Shown one piece after another: positions 17,997 through 26,302 of a stretch of DNA of 41,142 bases (its first letter is position 1; the number at the start of each line of letters is the position of its first letter). Source of the stretch: Candidatus Thermokryptus mobilis. GTDB taxonomy: Bacteria > Bacteroidota > Ignavibacteria > Kryptoniales > Kryptoniaceae. The notes under the pieces are model-generated. The model was given only the letters and a program-made list of their open reading frames with translations, did not search any database and was not told where the DNA came from. The stretch covers positions 1 through 41,142 of the forward strand of contig NZ_FAOO01000003.1 of NCBI RefSeq assembly GCF_900070205.1, in the 5' to 3' direction. Made by a program: the position numbers and the translations under genes.

Positions 17997-18025
17997 TTGA
18001 CTTTTGTAAAAAATATCTTTATATT
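17997..18025 (+). promoter_or_regulatory. Sigma-70-like promoter for the T9SS cluster
   Basis: TTGACT (17997-18002), a 17-bp spacer and TATATT (18020-18025) give a strong match. Transcription would begin near 18032, some 13 nt before the inverted repeat at 18045-18182 and 66 nt before the first ATG. Confidence 0.65.
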
Positions 18026-18044: not shown

Positions 18045-18182
18045 AAGGACGGTTGCTTATAGCGACTTCGTTAAAGGTTTTATCTCTTTGAATTAGTATG
18101 TCAAATGTAAAGCAAAAACCAAGTGAATACGATATGCAAAAAAACGACGCCTTTAACGCAAGTTCGCTTGGCAACCGTCCTT
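18045..18182 (+). promoter_or_regulatory. Long imperfect inverted repeat in the porU leader
   Basis: Two 33-nt arms (18045-18077 and 18150-18182) are complementary. The outer 12 nt match perfectly (AAGGACGGTTGC against GCAACCGTCCTT), as do the inner 9 nt (CGTTAAAGG against CCTTTAACG); the middle 12 nt pair with small bulges. A 72-nt loop separates the arms and holds a local TTTGA/TCAAA hairpin (18087-18091 with 18101-18105) whose 9-nt loop ends in the annotated ATG. The 3' arm runs into a T-rich stretch at 18181-18198. This is an attenuator-like or structured leader, or a small RNA, of no class I recognise; a small inverted-repeat element cannot be excluded. Confidence 0.6.
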
Positions 18183-21100
18183 TTTTGTTTCTTTTTTTAA
18201 TTTTCATAAGTCAATTAACCTCGGCTCAATATCTTCGGGATTTTTCAATCGTTTCACAGTCATCAGACGAAATTGTAATTGAATATACGCCTTATCTTTT
18301 AAACATAGATACGACGCTTTCACCCGAAGGGATGCTTTTATCATTTCAGATTTTAAACACAAGCATAGCCGATTATACCCCTGGTAAACCACAAATCCCT
18401 GTTCGGATTTTCCCAATTGCGTTTAAATCAAAAATTGGTAATTCGCTCAACTTAATTGAGACCTCGTATGTGGAGTACGAGGGCGTGAAATTAAAGCCAA
18501 ACCCGATATTGATTAAGGATTCAATCTCTTACGCGAAAAGTTATTCTTTTGATGAAGTTTATCGCTCGTTTGAGTTCATACCTGGTGAAATAGTTCAGCT
18601 TGGGGAAATCGGTGTTGCAAGGAATTACATTGTCTCACAGATAAAAGTTTATCCAATTCAATATAACCCAGGGATTGGAAAGGTGAGGTTTTACACGAAG
18701 ATAAAATTTGTGTTGAGATATGGACAGGGTGAAACTGTGTTTTCAAGGGCGGATAAATTTGATTTGAAAATTGCGCAAACTTTCGTCAATTATGAGTTTG
18801 CGAAAAATTGGAAAATTGAAGCGCTTCGCTTATCTAAACCAAGTGATAGCCAGTTTGCAACTGGAGATTGGTATAAAATTCCGATCAAGGATGAGGGAAT
18901 TTACAAGATAACTTACCAAGACCTTAGGAATGCTGGTATAAACCCTGATAACATTGACCCGAGGACTATAAAAATTTTTAACAACGGCGGATATCAACTC
19001 CCGGAAGATGTCCGTGAGCCAAGACCTGAGGGATTGATTGAAAACGCAATTTTAATTTATGGCGAGGATGATGGAAGATTTGATCAGGGTGATTATATAA
19101 TTTTTTACGGTCGCGGGACATCCGGTTGGAACTATAATCCGGAGGCGAAGGAATTCACTCACTATGTTAACGATTATACCGATGAAAATTATTACTTTCT
19201 CACATTCGGAGGTCAGCCAGGTAAAAGAATGCGGATCATTCAATCGTTAAACATCGCTTCACCATTTAGACCAAGTTATACAGTTGGTCTTGTCTTTAAA
19301 GACGAGCAGAAGATAAATTTAACGGAGTCGGGACGCGATTGGTTTATGTCTTCAGTTGAAGCAAGAGAAGGTTTCAATATGTTAAGTTATGTCACAAAGC
19401 TTGATGAACTTATCCCAGGGGGACTGATAAAATATAGAATTCAAGTTGCTTCAAGGTCTGCTGGACCAAATTGGTTTATCATCAAGGAAGGGGATTATGA
19501 GCTTGGTAGAATTGACCTTGGCACGGTTATACTTGAGGGGCTTGGCTCTTTAATTGATTTCTACGCTGTTAAGTCAGGGCCAAGGACATTTACATATTCG
19601 GGGAATCTGCCGGATTCGAGAAGCAACTTGAAATTTTATTTTAACTGGGTGGGTCAAGCTGTGGCTGGATATATTGATTGGTTTGAGATAATTTATCCTA
19701 GAAGTTTTAAAGCTGTGAACGATTTCATTTCTTTTTATTCCTATGACACGACCGCCATCGTTGAGTATAAAGTTTATGGGTTCTCGTCAAATGATATCAG
19801 GGTTTTTGATGTAAGCGATTTTAAAGATGTCAAGTTGATTTCAGGGAATATAAATGCGGGTGAATTTGTATTTCAAGTTTCGCAACAAAGCGGTGATATC
19901 AAGCGGTTCATTGGAGTTGGGAACAATGGATATAAAAATGTCACACGAATTGAAAAGGTGAAGAATACGAATTTAAGAGGCGAGGTTGAGGGTGCTGATT
20001 GGGTTGTTATAGCTCATCCGGACTTTATCCCACAGGCGAAGAAACTCGCCGAACACAGATCAAGAAAGGACTCGCTTAAAACACTTGTAGTTGATGTGAC
20101 GGATATATATAACGAGTTTTCATGTGGTATGTTTGATCCTGTTGCGATAAGGGATTTTTTGAGATTCGCTTTTGAGCGGTGGAATAAAAAGCCGTTTTAT
20201 GTTCTTTTGTTTGGAGATGGAGATTATGATTATAGAAATGTTGAGATTTCGGATAAAAATTGGATACCTCCTTACGAAAGCCGTGAAGGTTTGCAACAGA
20301 TTTTAACCTATACATCTGATGATTTTTATGTTCTTTTGACACCGGATGTTTATATTGATATGGCAATAGGTCGTTTGCCCGTTCAAAAGCAAGACGAGGC
20401 GGAAGCGGTAGTGAATAAAATTATCCAGTATGAAACTGGAAAAGATTTTGGAAACTGGAGGAACATCATTTTGTTTGCTGCTGATGATGGTATGGTCTCT
20501 GGCAGTGATTATGATGGGACAATTCATACATATCAAAGCGAAACTCTTTCAAATTACTATACCCCGGAATTTGTTGATAAAAGGAAGCTCTATCTTGTCG
20601 CTTATCCAACGGTTTATACTTCCGCCGGTCGTAGAAAGCCAGATGCAGCGAGGGCGCTCGTTGATTATATAAATCGTGGTTGCGTCATCGTTAACTGGAT
20701 TGGTCATGGCAATCCTTTCGTCTGGGCACATGAGAGGGTTTTTGAGTTTGGTTATACAATTCAAAATTTGAGAAATGGAAGCAGGACTCCTTTTATAATT
20801 GCAGCGACATGTGATTTTGCAAGGTTTGATAATCCGAAAACGCAGAGTTCTGCTGAGGTTTTATTGCTTTTAAAAGATGCTGGTGCTATCGGTGTGCTTT
20901 CATCCACTCGTCTTGTCTATTCTGGCGACAATGCTGTCTTCAATTATAAGTTTTTCGCTGAGTTGTTTAAACAAACTGATGAATACAAGACCTCAACGCT
21001 CGGTGAGGCGATTTTCAAAGTCAAACAGGTTCAAACATCGCTCAATGATAGAAAATTTATCTTGCTTGCTGACCCGGCAACGCGACTTGTGATTCCGAGA

Positions 21101-22171
21101 TATTCTGCGGAGATTGACTCAATAAATGGATTGAGCCCGAAACAGCAAACGGTTCAGCTAAAAGCTCTTGGTAAAGTTAAACTTTCTGGTAGTTCGTTTA
21201 AAAACAATCAAGTTAAAATTGAGTTATCCGGAAAAGTTGAACTTATACTTTTTGATGCGCTGAAAAATTTAAGTTACACTGACGAAATGGGAACAAGGTT
21301 TAACTTCATAGATCAAGGGAATTTGCTTTTCAAGGGAGAGTATACACTTGACAAAGGGCGGTTCTACGGAGAATTCATCATCCCTAAAGATATTTCATTT
21401 TCAAATTCAAAGTCAAAAATTTTGGCTTATTATTATGGCGATGGCGTTGACGGCATCGGATATACGACAAATGTAATCATCAATGGGATAGATTCAACCT
21501 TTACAATTGACAGAGTTGGTCCAGAGATTGAAGTTTATTTGAACAATAAAAATTTTAGGTCTGGTGATGTCGTGACGAATGAACCGACGCTAATCGTTGA
21601 AATTTCAGATGAAAGCGGGATTAACATTTCAACTTCTGCGATAGGGCATAGAATTGAGGCATTTATTGATGACAATCCGACGGGGATTGACTTGACGGAG
21701 TTCTACAAATCAGAACTTGACGATTATAAAAGGGGGAAGGTGGTTTACAAACTTCCAAAGTTATCGCCCGGGAAACACAGTTTAAAAGTCAGAGCTTGGG
21801 ATGTTTTTAACAACTCATCGGTTAAGGAGATAGAGTTTAATGTCGTTGAAGGTGTTGATTTCGCTATTTTCAATGTGTTTAATTATCCAAATCCATTTTC
21901 CGAGAAAACATATTTTACTTTTCAAAAGGTTGGAACTGAGGAGGAAACGCCAGTTGATGTTGAGATAAAGGTTTATACTTTGAGCGGTAAACTTATAAGT
22001 AGAATTGAGAGGTTTGGGCTTACGGGGAATTTCATCGCTATTGAATGGGATGGGCGCGATATGGATGGAGATGAAATCGCAAACGGGGTATACATTTATA
22101 AAGTCGTTGTGAAGACATTTGACGGCTCAAAAAGAGCTGAAACAATCGGGAAGCTTGTTGTGATGCGATAA
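18098..22171 (+). CDS. porU: PorU-like T9SS C25 peptidase (sortase-like)
   Basis: A 1357-residue outer-surface protein related to PorU, which removes the C-terminal sorting signal of T9SS cargo and attaches it to the surface lipid. A hydrophobic signal peptide spans about residues 29-43 (FLFLFLIFISQLTSAQ), after an unusual 28-residue extension. A C25 (gingipain) domain follows: VVIAHPDFIPQAKKLAEHR, VLLFGDGDYDYRN, His870 in WIGHGNPFVWAHE and Cys905 in AATCDFARFDN form the catalytic dyad. Further beta domains lead to a FlgD-like C-terminal domain (NYPNPFSEKTYF to KLVVMR). PorV follows directly, as expected. The start codon is uncertain; an in-frame ATG at 18134 is an alternative. Confidence 0.88.
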   Translation: MSNVKQKPSEYDMQKNDAFNASSLGNRPFLFLFLIFISQLTSAQYLRDFSIVSQSSDEIVIEYTPYLLNIDTTLSPEGMLLSFQILNTSIADYTPGKPQIPVRIFPIAFKSKIGNSLNLIETSYVEYEGVKLKPNPILIKDSISYAKSYSFDEVYRSFEFIPGEIVQLGEIGVARNYIVSQIKVYPIQYNPGIGKVRFYTKIKFVLRYGQGETVFSRADKFDLKIAQTFVNYEFAKNWKIEALRLSKPSDSQFATGDWYKIPIKDEGIYKITYQDLRNAGINPDNIDPRTIKIFNNGGYQLPEDVREPRPEGLIENAILIYGEDDGRFDQGDYIIFYGRGTSGWNYNPEAKEFTHYVNDYTDENYYFLTFGGQPGKRMRIIQSLNIASPFRPSYTVGLVFKDEQKINLTESGRDWFMSSVEAREGFNMLSYVTKLDELIPGGLIKYRIQVASRSAGPNWFIIKEGDYELGRIDLGTVILEGLGSLIDFYAVKSGPRTFTYSGNLPDSRSNLKFYFNWVGQAVAGYIDWFEIIYPRSFKAVNDFISFYSYDTTAIVEYKVYGFSSNDIRVFDVSDFKDVKLISGNINAGEFVFQVSQQSGDIKRFIGVGNNGYKNVTRIEKVKNTNLRGEVEGADWVVIAHPDFIPQAKKLAEHRSRKDSLKTLVVDVTDIYNEFSCGMFDPVAIRDFLRFAFERWNKKPFYVLLFGDGDYDYRNVEISDKNWIPPYESREGLQQILTYTSDDFYVLLTPDVYIDMAIGRLPVQKQDEAEAVVNKIIQYETGKDFGNWRNIILFAADDGMVSGSDYDGTIHTYQSETLSNYYTPEFVDKRKLYLVAYPTVYTSAGRRKPDAARALVDYINRGCVIVNWIGHGNPFVWAHERVFEFGYTIQNLRNGSRTPFIIAATCDFARFDNPKTQSSAEVLLLLKDAGAIGVLSSTRLVYSGDNAVFNYKFFAELFKQTDEYKTSTLGEAIFKVKQVQTSLNDRKFILLADPATRLVIPRYSAEIDSINGLSPKQQTVQLKALGKVKLSGSSFKNNQVKIELSGKVELILFDALKNLSYTDEMGTRFNFIDQGNLLFKGEYTLDKGRFYGEFIIPKDISFSNSKSKILAYYYGDGVDGIGYTTNVIINGIDSTFTIDRVGPEIEVYLNNKNFRSGDVVTNEPTLIVEISDESGINISTSAIGHRIEAFIDDNPTGIDLTEFYKSELDDYKRGKVVYKLPKLSPGKHSLKVRAWDVFNNSSVKEIEFNVVEGVDFAIFNVFNYPNPFSEKTYFTFQKVGTEEETPVDVEIKVYTLSGKLISRIERFGLTGNFIAIEWDGRDMDGDEIANGVYIYKVVVKTFDGSKRAETIGKLVVMR

Positions 22172-22260: not shown

Positions 22261-23352
22261 ATGTTAATTAGAGGCATCGTAAAGTCGTTCGTTTTATCAG
22301 CAATCTTCGTGATTTTGCTTGTTGGAATATCTTACGCTCAAGGAGGGGATGCCGCAGTTCCATTTCTTTTAATAGCACCTGATTCAAGAGCTGGGGCAAT
22401 GGGTGAAACTGGTGTAGCGTTGGCTGACAATGCAAATGCGATTTTCTGGAACCCAGCTGGTCTTGCTTTTCAAAAAGGAACTGAGATAAGCTTTACACAT
22501 GCAAAATGGCTTCCGCAATTTAGTTCAGACCTTTCGTATGAGTATTTAACTGCGAAACATCACATTGAAGCGATAGATGCAACAATTGGTGCCAACATAA
22601 CCTTTTTCAATCTCGGTTCGTTTGAGAGAAGAGATGAGAACAATACATATCTTGGGACATTTAAAGCGTTTGAGTATGCTGTTGCTGTTGGTTATGCTAT
22701 GAGGGTTGCGAGTAATTTGGGCTTGGGATTGAACTTGCGTTTTATCCATAGTCAACTTGCCCCATTTGGCACTGCGGAAGAGCAAGGTAGAGGTGTCGCA
22801 AATGGCGTGAGCTTTGATATTGGGGTTCTTTTCAGAGAACAAGTTTTCGGAAGACGAGTTGGAGTCGGTTTAAATCTTTCAAATCTTGGTCCAATGATTC
22901 ACTATATTGATAAAGAACAAGCCGATCCATTGCCAACACACCTTAGATTTGGTTTCGCCTTTGATGTAATTCAGACGAAGTACAATGATTTTACAGTGGC
23001 GGTTGACTTTGGAAGGGTTCTCGTAAGGAGATACCCGGGTACGGGGAGAAAACCCGATCCACTTCCAAAGTCATTGATAACAGCTTGGAATGAAGAAGCA
23101 AGTTTGAGAAGGGTGACAACTGGTGTTGGGTTTGAGTATTGGTATGGAAGCCCCAAGCTTATCGCATTAAGAGCTGGCTATTTCTATGAAGACCCAAGAG
23201 CTGGGGGGAGGAAATTCGCAACCTTTGGGGCGGGGATAAGATATAGTATAGTTGGCGTTGATTTCAGCTACATTTCAACATTTGAGGCGAATCACCCGCT
23301 TGCTAACACATTGAGGTTTTCAATTTTGTTAAATTTCGGAGAGAAAGAATAA
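22261..23352 (+). CDS. porV: PorV/PorQ-family outer-membrane protein
   Basis: A 363-residue FadL-like beta-barrel of the PorV (LptO) family, the shuttle that carries T9SS cargo from the translocon to PorU. A signal peptide ends near residue 27 (LVGISYAQGG). The family hallmark follows: FLLIAPDSRAGAMGETGVAL and ADNANAIFWNPAGLAF. Barrel strands with aromatic ends fill the rest, ending in LRFSILLNFGEKE. PorV and PorQ are close paralogs; adjacency to the PorU-like gene favours PorV. Spacing to porU is 89 nt and includes a hairpin and a perfect AAGGAGGT site. The next gene starts 22 nt downstream. Confidence 0.88.
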   Translation: MLIRGIVKSFVLSAIFVILLVGISYAQGGDAAVPFLLIAPDSRAGAMGETGVALADNANAIFWNPAGLAFQKGTEISFTHAKWLPQFSSDLSYEYLTAKHHIEAIDATIGANITFFNLGSFERRDENNTYLGTFKAFEYAVAVGYAMRVASNLGLGLNLRFIHSQLAPFGTAEEQGRGVANGVSFDIGVLFREQVFGRRVGVGLNLSNLGPMIHYIDKEQADPLPTHLRFGFAFDVIQTKYNDFTVAVDFGRVLVRRYPGTGRKPDPLPKSLITAWNEEASLRRVTTGVGFEYWYGSPKLIALRAGYFYEDPRAGGRKFATFGAGIRYSIVGVDFSYISTFEANHPLANTLRFSILLNFGEKE

Positions 23353-23374: not shown

Positions 23375-26302
23375 ATGCGCTTCATTTCGTTAAGCATTTT
23401 AACTTTAATCTTGAGTTTTTGTTTGTTTTCACAACCCCAGCGTGCGTATAAAGTTCTTGCTGTTATGGTTGAATTTCAAACAGATGATGACCCATTGACA
23501 ACTGGAAATGGTAAATTTGACCTGAGTTTTCCGAGCAAAAAAATCATTGACCCGCCACCTCACGATAAAAGATATTTTGAGGCGCATCTTCAGTTTTTGA
23601 AGAATTATTTCGCGAAGTTCTCAATTGATGTTGATTATGAAATCATTGATACTGTCTTCACCTTGTCAAAGCAAATGCGATATTATTCACCACCTCAAGA
23701 CTCAGGATTTGACCGACTCTTGTGGCTTGTTTATGAGACATGGACAATTGTTAAAAATTCAGGTGTGAGGATGAATTTACCGATTTCATCCTATGATTGC
23801 TATATAATTTTCCACGCTGGGGTTGGTAGGGATATAAATTTATCCGCTGAGTACGGATATAATCCAACTCCATACGACATCCCATCAGTTTTTATTAACA
23901 CTGATTCAATTATTTCATTTTTGCGGAAGAATGGTATTGGTGATGATTTTGGGATTAAAAATTCAATCATTCTACCGGAGACAGAATCAAGGGTTGTTTC
24001 AACTTTAACAGGTGAAAATCTTTTACAGCTTGGCTTAAATGGTCTTCTTGTCTCAAACTTTGCGAGTTTTCTTGGTTTGCCTGATTTATTTGATACCGCA
24101 ACTGGGCGTTCAAGAATTGGCAGGTTTGGTTTGATGGACGGAGCGGGGATTTTTTCATATCGTGGGGTTTTACCGCCTTCACCATCAGCTTGGGAAAAGG
24201 TTAAACTTGGTATATGTAACCCAATTGAGGTCACCTTGCAAAAAGATACAACCTTAACGATTTACACATTTCAGAGCGATCCAAGCCGTTCTGTTTATAA
24301 AATCCCAATAAATAAAAAGGAATACTTTCTCCTTGAGAATAGAAATCGCGATGCCTTCTCAGATGGAGCGAGGTTGAAATTTCTCTGGCGCGATTCAACC
24401 GGTGAAAGAATTATTGAAAGGGTTTTCACAAGTGAACAGCGTGGGTTTAATTATTTTGAGGTTGATTCAATTTATGGGGTCTTGATTGATGTTGACGAGC
24501 CCGACTGGGCTTTGCCCGGGTCTGGAATTTTAATATGGTATATTGACGAGAATGTGATTGAAGAAAAAATTAAAACCAACTCAATAAACAATGATGTGAA
24601 GCGTCTCGGTGTTAAACTTGTAGAAGCAGATGGACCACAGGTTATTTACGGAGATGAAATCGGCTGGGAGTTTGATATGTGGTTTTTGGGGAATTCAGCT
24701 CCTCTTTACAAAAATGAGTTTTCAATTCGTTCTTATCCTTGGAATCCAACGAATAGCCGTTCAAATTTTAATTTTAAAATTTATGATTTCAGCGCCCCGT
24801 CACCGGTGATGACTTTCAAAGTTGGTTTAAACGATACAATTTTAAGTCCGATGCCTTCTTTTCCGAAACAGATTGAAGGTTTAACATTAAATTCTTCAAT
24901 TACGACTGCAAATATTGACCACGACCCAAAAAACGAAATAATTTTGAATTCTTCAATTGGAATTTACGCTTTTAATCCTTCGGGGACGAGTTTAACTTTG
25001 AACCCAGATGGGAGGTATTCAAGAACTGGAGGCGATTTCCCTTGTGCTGTTTTTGATGTTGATGGGGACGGGAAAAAGGATGTTGTCGGGATAAGTGGTA
25101 ATAAAGTTGTCGTGTTTAAAACATTTGATTCAAATCTTGATGGCTTTGCTGATAGCGTTTGGGTCTTTGAAAATGGGAGTCAAATTTCAACACCACCAGC
25201 GATTTTCCGCAATGAAATTATCTTCGGAGATAGCTCCGGATATCTTAACTTTTTAAGAAGAGATGGGACTTTGGAAAGGAAGGTTAAAATTTCTGATGAG
25301 CCAGTTATCTCTCTTATCGCAAGTGATTCAATGTGGGTCGCTACTTCCAAGACAAAAGTAAAAACCGAGAGCAGAGAATGGAAGTTTAATGTTAATTTTG
25401 TCGCTTCAACTGGAATTGATCTTAAAGGGAACGGTGCTATTGAAATTGTAATAGCAATAGGTGAGGATGGGGATATAGCAATAGTTAACACTCAAAGTGG
25501 TAATTTTAAGATGATAAAGTTGCCTTTTAAATCAAAAGTGAACACAACTCCAGCACTTGCCGATTTGAATGCTGATGGTTATCCTGATGTAATAATAACT
25601 GTTGGAGATGACATTTGGGCGTTGAATTACCTTGGTTCTGTCCTTATGAATTTTCCGATAAAAGTTAGAGATGCCGTTTGGGTTTCTGCGCCGGTTGTTG
25701 TTGATTTTTACGGAGATAGTTTGCCTGAGATAATCGTTGGGACGAAAACAGGGCTTATTTATGCATTTGATGTCTACGGTAAAATAGTTTCGGGTTTTCC
25801 TGTTTCTGTTAGTTCATCGGTTGTTGGTTCGCCGTCGGTTTTCTATGAGAGCAATCTCGTCCATCTTTTTGTTGCAAGCTCTGACGGCTATCTTTATGGT
25901 TGGACGATAAAACCAAGTTCAATTCCAGCTAAAGTTTTCTGGGGGGGTTACCTTCGTGATGAAAAACATTCAAATTATTCCTCAAAGTTTGCTTTTGTTG
26001 AGCCGTTGCCACGGGCTGAAATACTTGATAAAAATGAGGTTTACAACTGGCCAAATCCAGTTTTGAGTGATTATACGTTTATCCGTGTGAAGACATTTTA
26101 TGATTCAAAAGTGAATATAAAAATTTTTGACCTCGCGGGTTTTAAAGTTGATGAATTTGATATAATGACCTCGGCAAATTTTGAAACTGATGTAAAATGG
26201 GATGTGAGCAAAGTTCAAGGTGGGGTTTATTATGCCCGAATTGAAGCGAACGCACAAGGCAGAAGCGATGTTAAGATAATAAAGATAGCCATCGTGAAAT
26301 GA
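23375..26302 (+). CDS. M6-like metalloprotease homologue with degenerate zinc site, FG-GAP and sorting domain
   Basis: A 975-residue secreted protein. A signal peptide (1-19, SFCLFSQ) precedes an M6/immune-inhibitor-A-like domain (about 20-300), recognisable by VLAVMVEFQ and by LGLPDLFDTATGRSR with FGLMDGAGIF and SPSAWEKVKLG. In active M6 enzymes the stretch just before LGLPDLYDT is HEFGH. Here it is SNFAS (residues 227-231, 24053-24067), so both His ligands and the catalytic Glu are gone. FG-GAP repeats follow (DVDGDGKKD, DLNADGYPD, DFYGDSLPE). A C-terminal sorting-like domain (NWPNPVLSDYTFIRV to IAIVK) ends it. It sits between porV and the gluzincin fusion, overlapping the latter by 4 nt. 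Probably a surface binding protein. Confidence 0.82.
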   Translation: MRFISLSILTLILSFCLFSQPQRAYKVLAVMVEFQTDDDPLTTGNGKFDLSFPSKKIIDPPPHDKRYFEAHLQFLKNYFAKFSIDVDYEIIDTVFTLSKQMRYYSPPQDSGFDRLLWLVYETWTIVKNSGVRMNLPISSYDCYIIFHAGVGRDINLSAEYGYNPTPYDIPSVFINTDSIISFLRKNGIGDDFGIKNSIILPETESRVVSTLTGENLLQLGLNGLLVSNFASFLGLPDLFDTATGRSRIGRFGLMDGAGIFSYRGVLPPSPSAWEKVKLGICNPIEVTLQKDTTLTIYTFQSDPSRSVYKIPINKKEYFLLENRNRDAFSDGARLKFLWRDSTGERIIERVFTSEQRGFNYFEVDSIYGVLIDVDEPDWALPGSGILIWYIDENVIEEKIKTNSINNDVKRLGVKLVEADGPQVIYGDEIGWEFDMWFLGNSAPLYKNEFSIRSYPWNPTNSRSNFNFKIYDFSAPSPVMTFKVGLNDTILSPMPSFPKQIEGLTLNSSITTANIDHDPKNEIILNSSIGIYAFNPSGTSLTLNPDGRYSRTGGDFPCAVFDVDGDGKKDVVGISGNKVVVFKTFDSNLDGFADSVWVFENGSQISTPPAIFRNEIIFGDSSGYLNFLRRDGTLERKVKISDEPVISLIASDSMWVATSKTKVKTESREWKFNVNFVASTGIDLKGNGAIEIVIAIGEDGDIAIVNTQSGNFKMIKLPFKSKVNTTPALADLNADGYPDVIITVGDDIWALNYLGSVLMNFPIKVRDAVWVSAPVVVDFYGDSLPEIIVGTKTGLIYAFDVYGKIVSGFPVSVSSSVVGSPSVFYESNLVHLFVASSDGYLYGWTIKPSSIPAKVFWGGYLRDEKHSNYSSKFAFVEPLPRAEILDKNEVYNWPNPVLSDYTFIRVKTFYDSKVNIKIFDLAGFKVDEFDIMTSANFETDVKWDVSKVQGGVYYARIEANAQGRSDVKIIKIAIVK

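Follow-up and report, generated by a model that had tools for sequence, protein, structure and literature searches.

A conserved RNA leader at the start of the sortase gene porU in Candidatus Kryptonia, a probable transcription attenuator with relatives in many families of its class

Introduction

PorU is the sortase that anchors the cargo proteins of the type IX secretion system (T9SS). The DNA analyzed here (the window) is a stretch of 41,142 nucleotides from a Candidatus Kryptonia genome (G000:C3:1-41142). It carries porU on the forward strand at 18134-22171 (NF033707, 1004.8 bits, with Peptidase_C25). Two named relatives, Ca. Chrysopegis kryptomonas and Ca. Kryptonium thompsonii, possess PorU proteins that are about 72% identical, and porU-like genes were found in all of the 100 sampled genomes of the class. 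Downstream of porU, on the same strand, lies porV (22261-23352; NF033710, 256.5 bits with a cut-off of 250), and immediately 3' of porV a gene for a T9SS-dependent, M6-like inactivated metalloprotease is located at 23375-26302.

A long inverted repeat covers the beginning of porU. An earlier note on this DNA regarded it as a riboswitch or attenuator of the secretion operon, or as a small RNA whose end overlaps the gene. Here we ask what kind of element it is and whether it belongs to porU.

Results

Structure of the leader

The two arms of the inverted repeat are located at 18045-18077 and 18150-18182 on the forward strand, and form 12 perfect outer and 9 perfect inner base pairs. The minimum free energy of the complete leader RNA (18045-18182), which comprises the 5' UTR and the first 16 codons of porU, was -48.4 kcal/mol, compared with -25.0 +/- 3.5 kcal/mol for 200 dinucleotide shuffles, none of which was equally stable (z = -6.75). 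Thus, the inverted repeat described in the earlier note is real. The outer stem (P1) consists of 18045-18057 and 18170-18182, and the inner stem (P2), which contains the core, of 18062-18077 and 18150-18167. The 5' strand of the core holds GTTAAAGG (18070-18077), which is common to several families, and its 3' strand holds CCTTTAAC (18150-18157). The 3' strands of both stems are coding. The T-run right after the 3' arm was likewise confirmed as TTTTGTTT at 18183-18190, where it abuts P1, resembles the U-tract of a terminator and lies within the porU frame.

As in an attenuator, the leader has its own promoter directly upstream. This promoter (TTGACT-17-TATATT, 17997-18025, forward strand) matches at 10 of 12 positions, and its sequences TTGACTTT and TTATATTG are kept in the six genomes compared below. 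A leader peptide in the 5' arm was considered and rejected, because by eye the frame is broken by indels and stops between the relatives.

Start codon of porU

The annotated ATG at 18098 is missing or out of the porU frame in the relatives, and is not the conserved start. The ATG at 18134 (ACGATATG), which lies in the hairpin loop, is the sole start common to all six genomes. From this comparison, 18134 is most likely the true start of porU. Since no other ATG is shared, the extension before the signal-peptide core is about 16 residues, and the 28 residues given previously are not correct.

Conservation within the genus

The leader was found 5' of porU in five of the six other members of the genus. 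In the sixth, G003, whose genome is about 71% complete, a porU orthologue is not among the assembled genes; with the window, the leader is therefore present at six of six assembled porU loci. The arms and the promoter are conserved across these genomes, and the flanking sequence drifts. Standard pairing holds in each of the 174 cells that make up the 29 arm pairs. One change is compensatory (A-U to G-C in P1, 18051/18176 of the window) and two are wobble changes. Because the window's 3' change at 18051/18176 replaces Cys by Arg, pairing is preserved at the expense of a protein residue.

The codons of the 3' arm were compared with those of the whole gene. Over porU, 137 of 737 conserved-residue codons (19%) are identical in the six genomes. 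The first 11 of them extend across the 3' arm and the U-tract without a single difference, and no other run of five or more identical codons exists in porU; in the 3' arm of P1, no synonymous variation was detected. This is more than protein constraint alone would give, and the codon comparison indicates that the coding 3' arm is under RNA-level constraint.

A wider leader family in the class

At least seven further families of the class carry a GUUAAAGGUU...CCUUUAAC hairpin 5' of porU. The same core precedes porU in f2, which belongs to the same order as Kryptonia, and in f6, f13, f14, f17, f18 and f20. Probably f4 carries the core before porU too. Often TATAGA comes first; (UUC)GUUAAAGGUUU and CCUUURAC(GAAC) then follow, separated by a variable loop. 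Across families, the loops range from 19 to 69 nt and have little sequence in common; the conserved part is the duplex.

The earlier note had proposed covariation in the porU leaders of relatives as a check, and covariation was found across families. In 38 cores, changes on both sides of a pair numbered 28, compared with 10.4 +/- 2.9 after shuffling, and none of 500 shuffles reached 28. In a second alignment of 29 sequences with natural loops, from which Kryptonia was excluded, 18 such changes were counted against 7.4 +/- 2.6; both counts are somewhat optimistic, since the 3' anchors were picked partly by pairing. Pairing in the 38 cores was 89%, and at most 57% when the strands were slid against each other. 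No relevant family was matched in Rfam, riboswitches and the T-box included.

Several families show arrangements of their own. In f6, two genomes (G050 and G059) possess tandem porU copies. In f2 (L136 and L138), one porU ends before the leader, and the contig then stops at the point where another copy would be expected. In f20 (L154-L156), the leader precedes a membrane-protein gene that resembles a polysaccharide flippase, and porU is the next gene in G085. In f12 (L051, L052, L056, L058, L061 and L062), another conserved leader hairpin, CTATATAGATTTCTTTAC / GTAAAGGAATCTATATAG, and a terminator precede porU; this hairpin may be an analogue of the Kryptonia element with the strands swapped. 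In f15 (L113 and L117-L123), a tRNA-like gene stands before porU in place of the leader, together with a strong terminator (ATGCCTTGCC...GGCGAGGCAT and a T-run).

Linkage of the leader to porU

The second alignment was used to build a covariance model (R1). In the 41-kb window, R1 matched exactly one site, 18052-18169, with an E-value of 0.0013; the aligned stretches are UUAUAG and UUCGUUAAAGGUUU. The remaining five Kryptonia leaders were matched more weakly, with E-values from 0.0002 to 0.12 (over 70 kb). Among 294 genomes of the class, the checked loci with E below 1e-6 were located before porU, between tandem porU copies, or at the f20 position, in which one flippase-like gene stands upstream of porU. 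The porU-linked strong matches among those checked belong to f2, f13, f14, f17, f18 and f20. A match in G147 (E = 4.7e-4) is without a porU link.

The pattern GTTARAGGTTN(10-40)CCTTTRAC matched 25 times in the 294 genomes. Nineteen of these matches are linked to the porU operon, and six lie within or overlap coding sequence. A reversed control pattern gave about a dozen matches, so that the six unlinked ones are expected by chance. Outside the class, a search of the phylum yielded weak matches only. None of the checked ones is porU-linked, and a spread of the leader beyond the class was rejected on this ground.

Terminators at porU

As a terminator we took a U-tract preceded by a hairpin with an energy of -10 kcal/mol or better. 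Such terminators were found at 33 of 33 porU starts in f2, f6, f7, f12, f13, f14, f17 and f18, at only 1 of 33 in f3, f5, f10 and f11, and in 26 of 330 (8%) sequences obtained by dinucleotide shuffling of the leader set. Because this grouping of families was made after a first terminator scan, the contrast between groups is descriptive; the shuffle control is less affected. In f7 and f12, the terminator is present and the leader hairpins differ from the core type. Thus, an intrinsic terminator stands between promoter and gene body in eight families of relatives, and Kryptonia has the long-loop P1 with its U-tract at this place.

In f2, f12, f14 and most of f17, only 6-31 nt separate the end of the terminator stem from the first in-frame downstream ATG. 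This gap leaves no room for a promoter, and porU must therefore be read through the terminator. In f6, no stop interrupts the frame across the terminator when it is read from a possible NTG start 45 nt upstream of the terminator end, which resembles the Kryptonia frame through P1. The Kryptonia P1 is atypical, since it closes a 112-nt loop that contains the P2 stem, and a scan of the Kryptonia leader for short-loop terminators found none. In f17, TTTTTT follows the homologous outer stem itself, and a second terminator comes after it. Kryptonia seems to have kept only the first form, the outer stem with the U-tract.

Alternative pairings

The earlier note had proposed a switch by pairing of GGTTTT (18076-18081) with AAAACC (18115-18120). 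This pairing exists: by eye, 5-7 bp are possible in all six genomes. However, it shows no covariation and competes with only one or two pairs of the core. An antiterminator common to the families was not found (mean z = -0.42), in a scan that missed or mis-set the terminator in many leaders. In the same scan, f14 alone showed antiterminator pairing (z about -2). In f14 (L093, L098 and L104), the leader loop AATTTCGGTTTT repeats the 3' arm of the terminator and can pair with the terminator 5' arm, which makes it a clear candidate antiterminator. In several members of f2, a terminator loop, AAAGGTCTGCA, can pair with the hairpin 3' strand TGTAGACCTTT, also a candidate found by eye.

Discussion

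Our preferred reading, with a probability of roughly 0.7, is a transcription attenuator that acts in cis on porU; the leader would be its Kryptonia version, with counterparts in many families of the class. A conserved hairpin precedes porU, usually beside a terminator. On these comparisons, the T9SS is probably controlled by a previously undescribed RNA switch. The interpretation in the earlier note is supported in part, as far as the structured leader, its promoter, its conservation and covariation, the terminators of the relatives, the single copy and the lack of an Rfam match are concerned; the particular switch pairing, kept in the genus but without covariation, is a candidate only. One point against an attenuator is that only one compensatory pair occurs within the genus.

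The following mechanism would agree with these features. Judging from the promoter, RNA polymerase would start roughly 10-15 nt before P1. The nascent RNA would form the hairpin with the conserved core duplex GUUAAAGG/CCUUUAAC, and then the terminator hairpin with its U-tract, which in most families lies just 5' of the porU ATG, and in Kryptonia and f6 inside the first codons. Termination would be the default, and porU would be expressed by read-through only. The extent of read-through would be set by a factor, most likely an RNA-binding protein, by which the core duplex is recognized. In Kryptonia, the 3' arm (P2 and P1) would also be covered or opened by a ribosome that starts at 18134, which would favor read-through and tie it to translation start.

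A small-molecule riboswitch, in which the hairpin is the aptamer and the ligand sets termination before porU, would share the order of promoter, leader, terminator and gene. The conserved core and the conserved unpaired stretches in the genus loop also suit an aptamer. Across families, however, conservation resides in the duplex and not in the variable loops, a shared expression-platform pairing was not found by the scan (which missed or mis-set many terminators), and the gene concerned is that of a sortase and not a metabolic one. Because the duplex is conserved and the loops vary, the signal suggested by the alignments is a protein more than a metabolite, and we regard a riboswitch as unlikely. 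Somewhat lower still we place a role of the structure in translation or mRNA stability alone, without termination, either as a stem just 3' of the Kryptonia start or as a 5' hairpin against RNases. The start codon in the loop, the 3' arm in the coding sequence and the lack of a classical short-loop terminator in Kryptonia agree with it, but the relatives carry strong short-loop terminators with U-tracts at all 33 porU starts. In antitermination of the LoaP type, a specialized NusG paralogue binds a leader hairpin and polymerase passes the terminator. The layout is that of the dfn leader of Bacillus velezensis, in which a small hairpin and then an intrinsic terminator precede the first gene (PMC12691694). 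Two NusG-domain proteins occur in Kryptonia, and the second, besides the main NusG, is encoded at G000:C2:35348-35626. Yet only one NusG is present in the leader-bearing genomes G022, G032, G010 and G048 (f14, f6 and f17), f10 and f3, where there are two, are devoid of the leader, and the leader hairpin lacks the reported UNCG loop. A NusG paralogue was rejected as the partner, as its distribution does not track the leader, and LoaP-type control of porU is very improbable.

The chance is even slimmer for an independent sRNA gene with its terminator beside porU, or for a leader fragment that is set free and acts in trans as an sRNA. The distance of about 150 nt between promoter and U-tract, with terminators present, would be suitable, but the strong matches that were checked are linked to porU in every family concerned and occur even between tandem copies, and between terminator and ATG there is usually not enough space for a second promoter. 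The independent small RNA of the earlier note is thus not upheld. An inverted repeat with a T-run could also be a mobile repeat or a chance palindrome, for which many copies elsewhere had been named as the sign. Against this stand the z-score of the fold, the single copy in each genome and the same position in all relatives. The genome search found one copy of the window repeat, and a supposed second copy in G002 (L028) was a chance match without arms. The mobile repeat was rejected accordingly, and the probability of either origin is negligible.

To the attenuator we add a more tentative proposal, at somewhat less than even odds: the leader may be an RNA sensor of a new class, through which many families of one bacterial class adjust production of the T9SS sortase to a cellular signal. 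It would be either a riboswitch or a target for an RNA-binding antiterminator, and the in-frame terminator of Kryptonia may link translation start and read-through. Such a leader before the sortase gene offers a handle on the timing of T9SS building in many families, and a new RNA family in which signals can be tested. In the open-access literature, we found no report of RNA-level control of the T9SS or of an RNA leader tied to porU.

T-box leaders, ANTAR targets and amino-acid attenuators are leader RNAs that gate a terminator, and ANTAR targets are paired hexaloop hairpins. The porU leader would gate its terminator in the same manner. It differs from T-box leaders in having no T-box match in Rfam, and from amino-acid attenuators in that no conserved leader peptide is seen by eye in the Kryptonia 5' arm. 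With terminating riboswitches and ribosomal-protein leaders it shares a promoter, a conserved RNA element and a terminator just before the start codon; in contrast to them, it has no Rfam match, its conserved part is a duplex and not an aptamer-like loop or junction, and the scan, which mis-set or missed many terminators, gave no common antiterminator. The LoaP-dependent dfn and mln leaders of B. velezensis also consist of a small leader hairpin and then an intrinsic terminator (PMC12691694), whereas the porU leader has no UNCG hairpin, several leader genomes have no NusG paralogue, and the target is a T9SS gene. An attenuator leader is a known kind of element; the RNA family, its target and the in-frame form of the terminator appear new.
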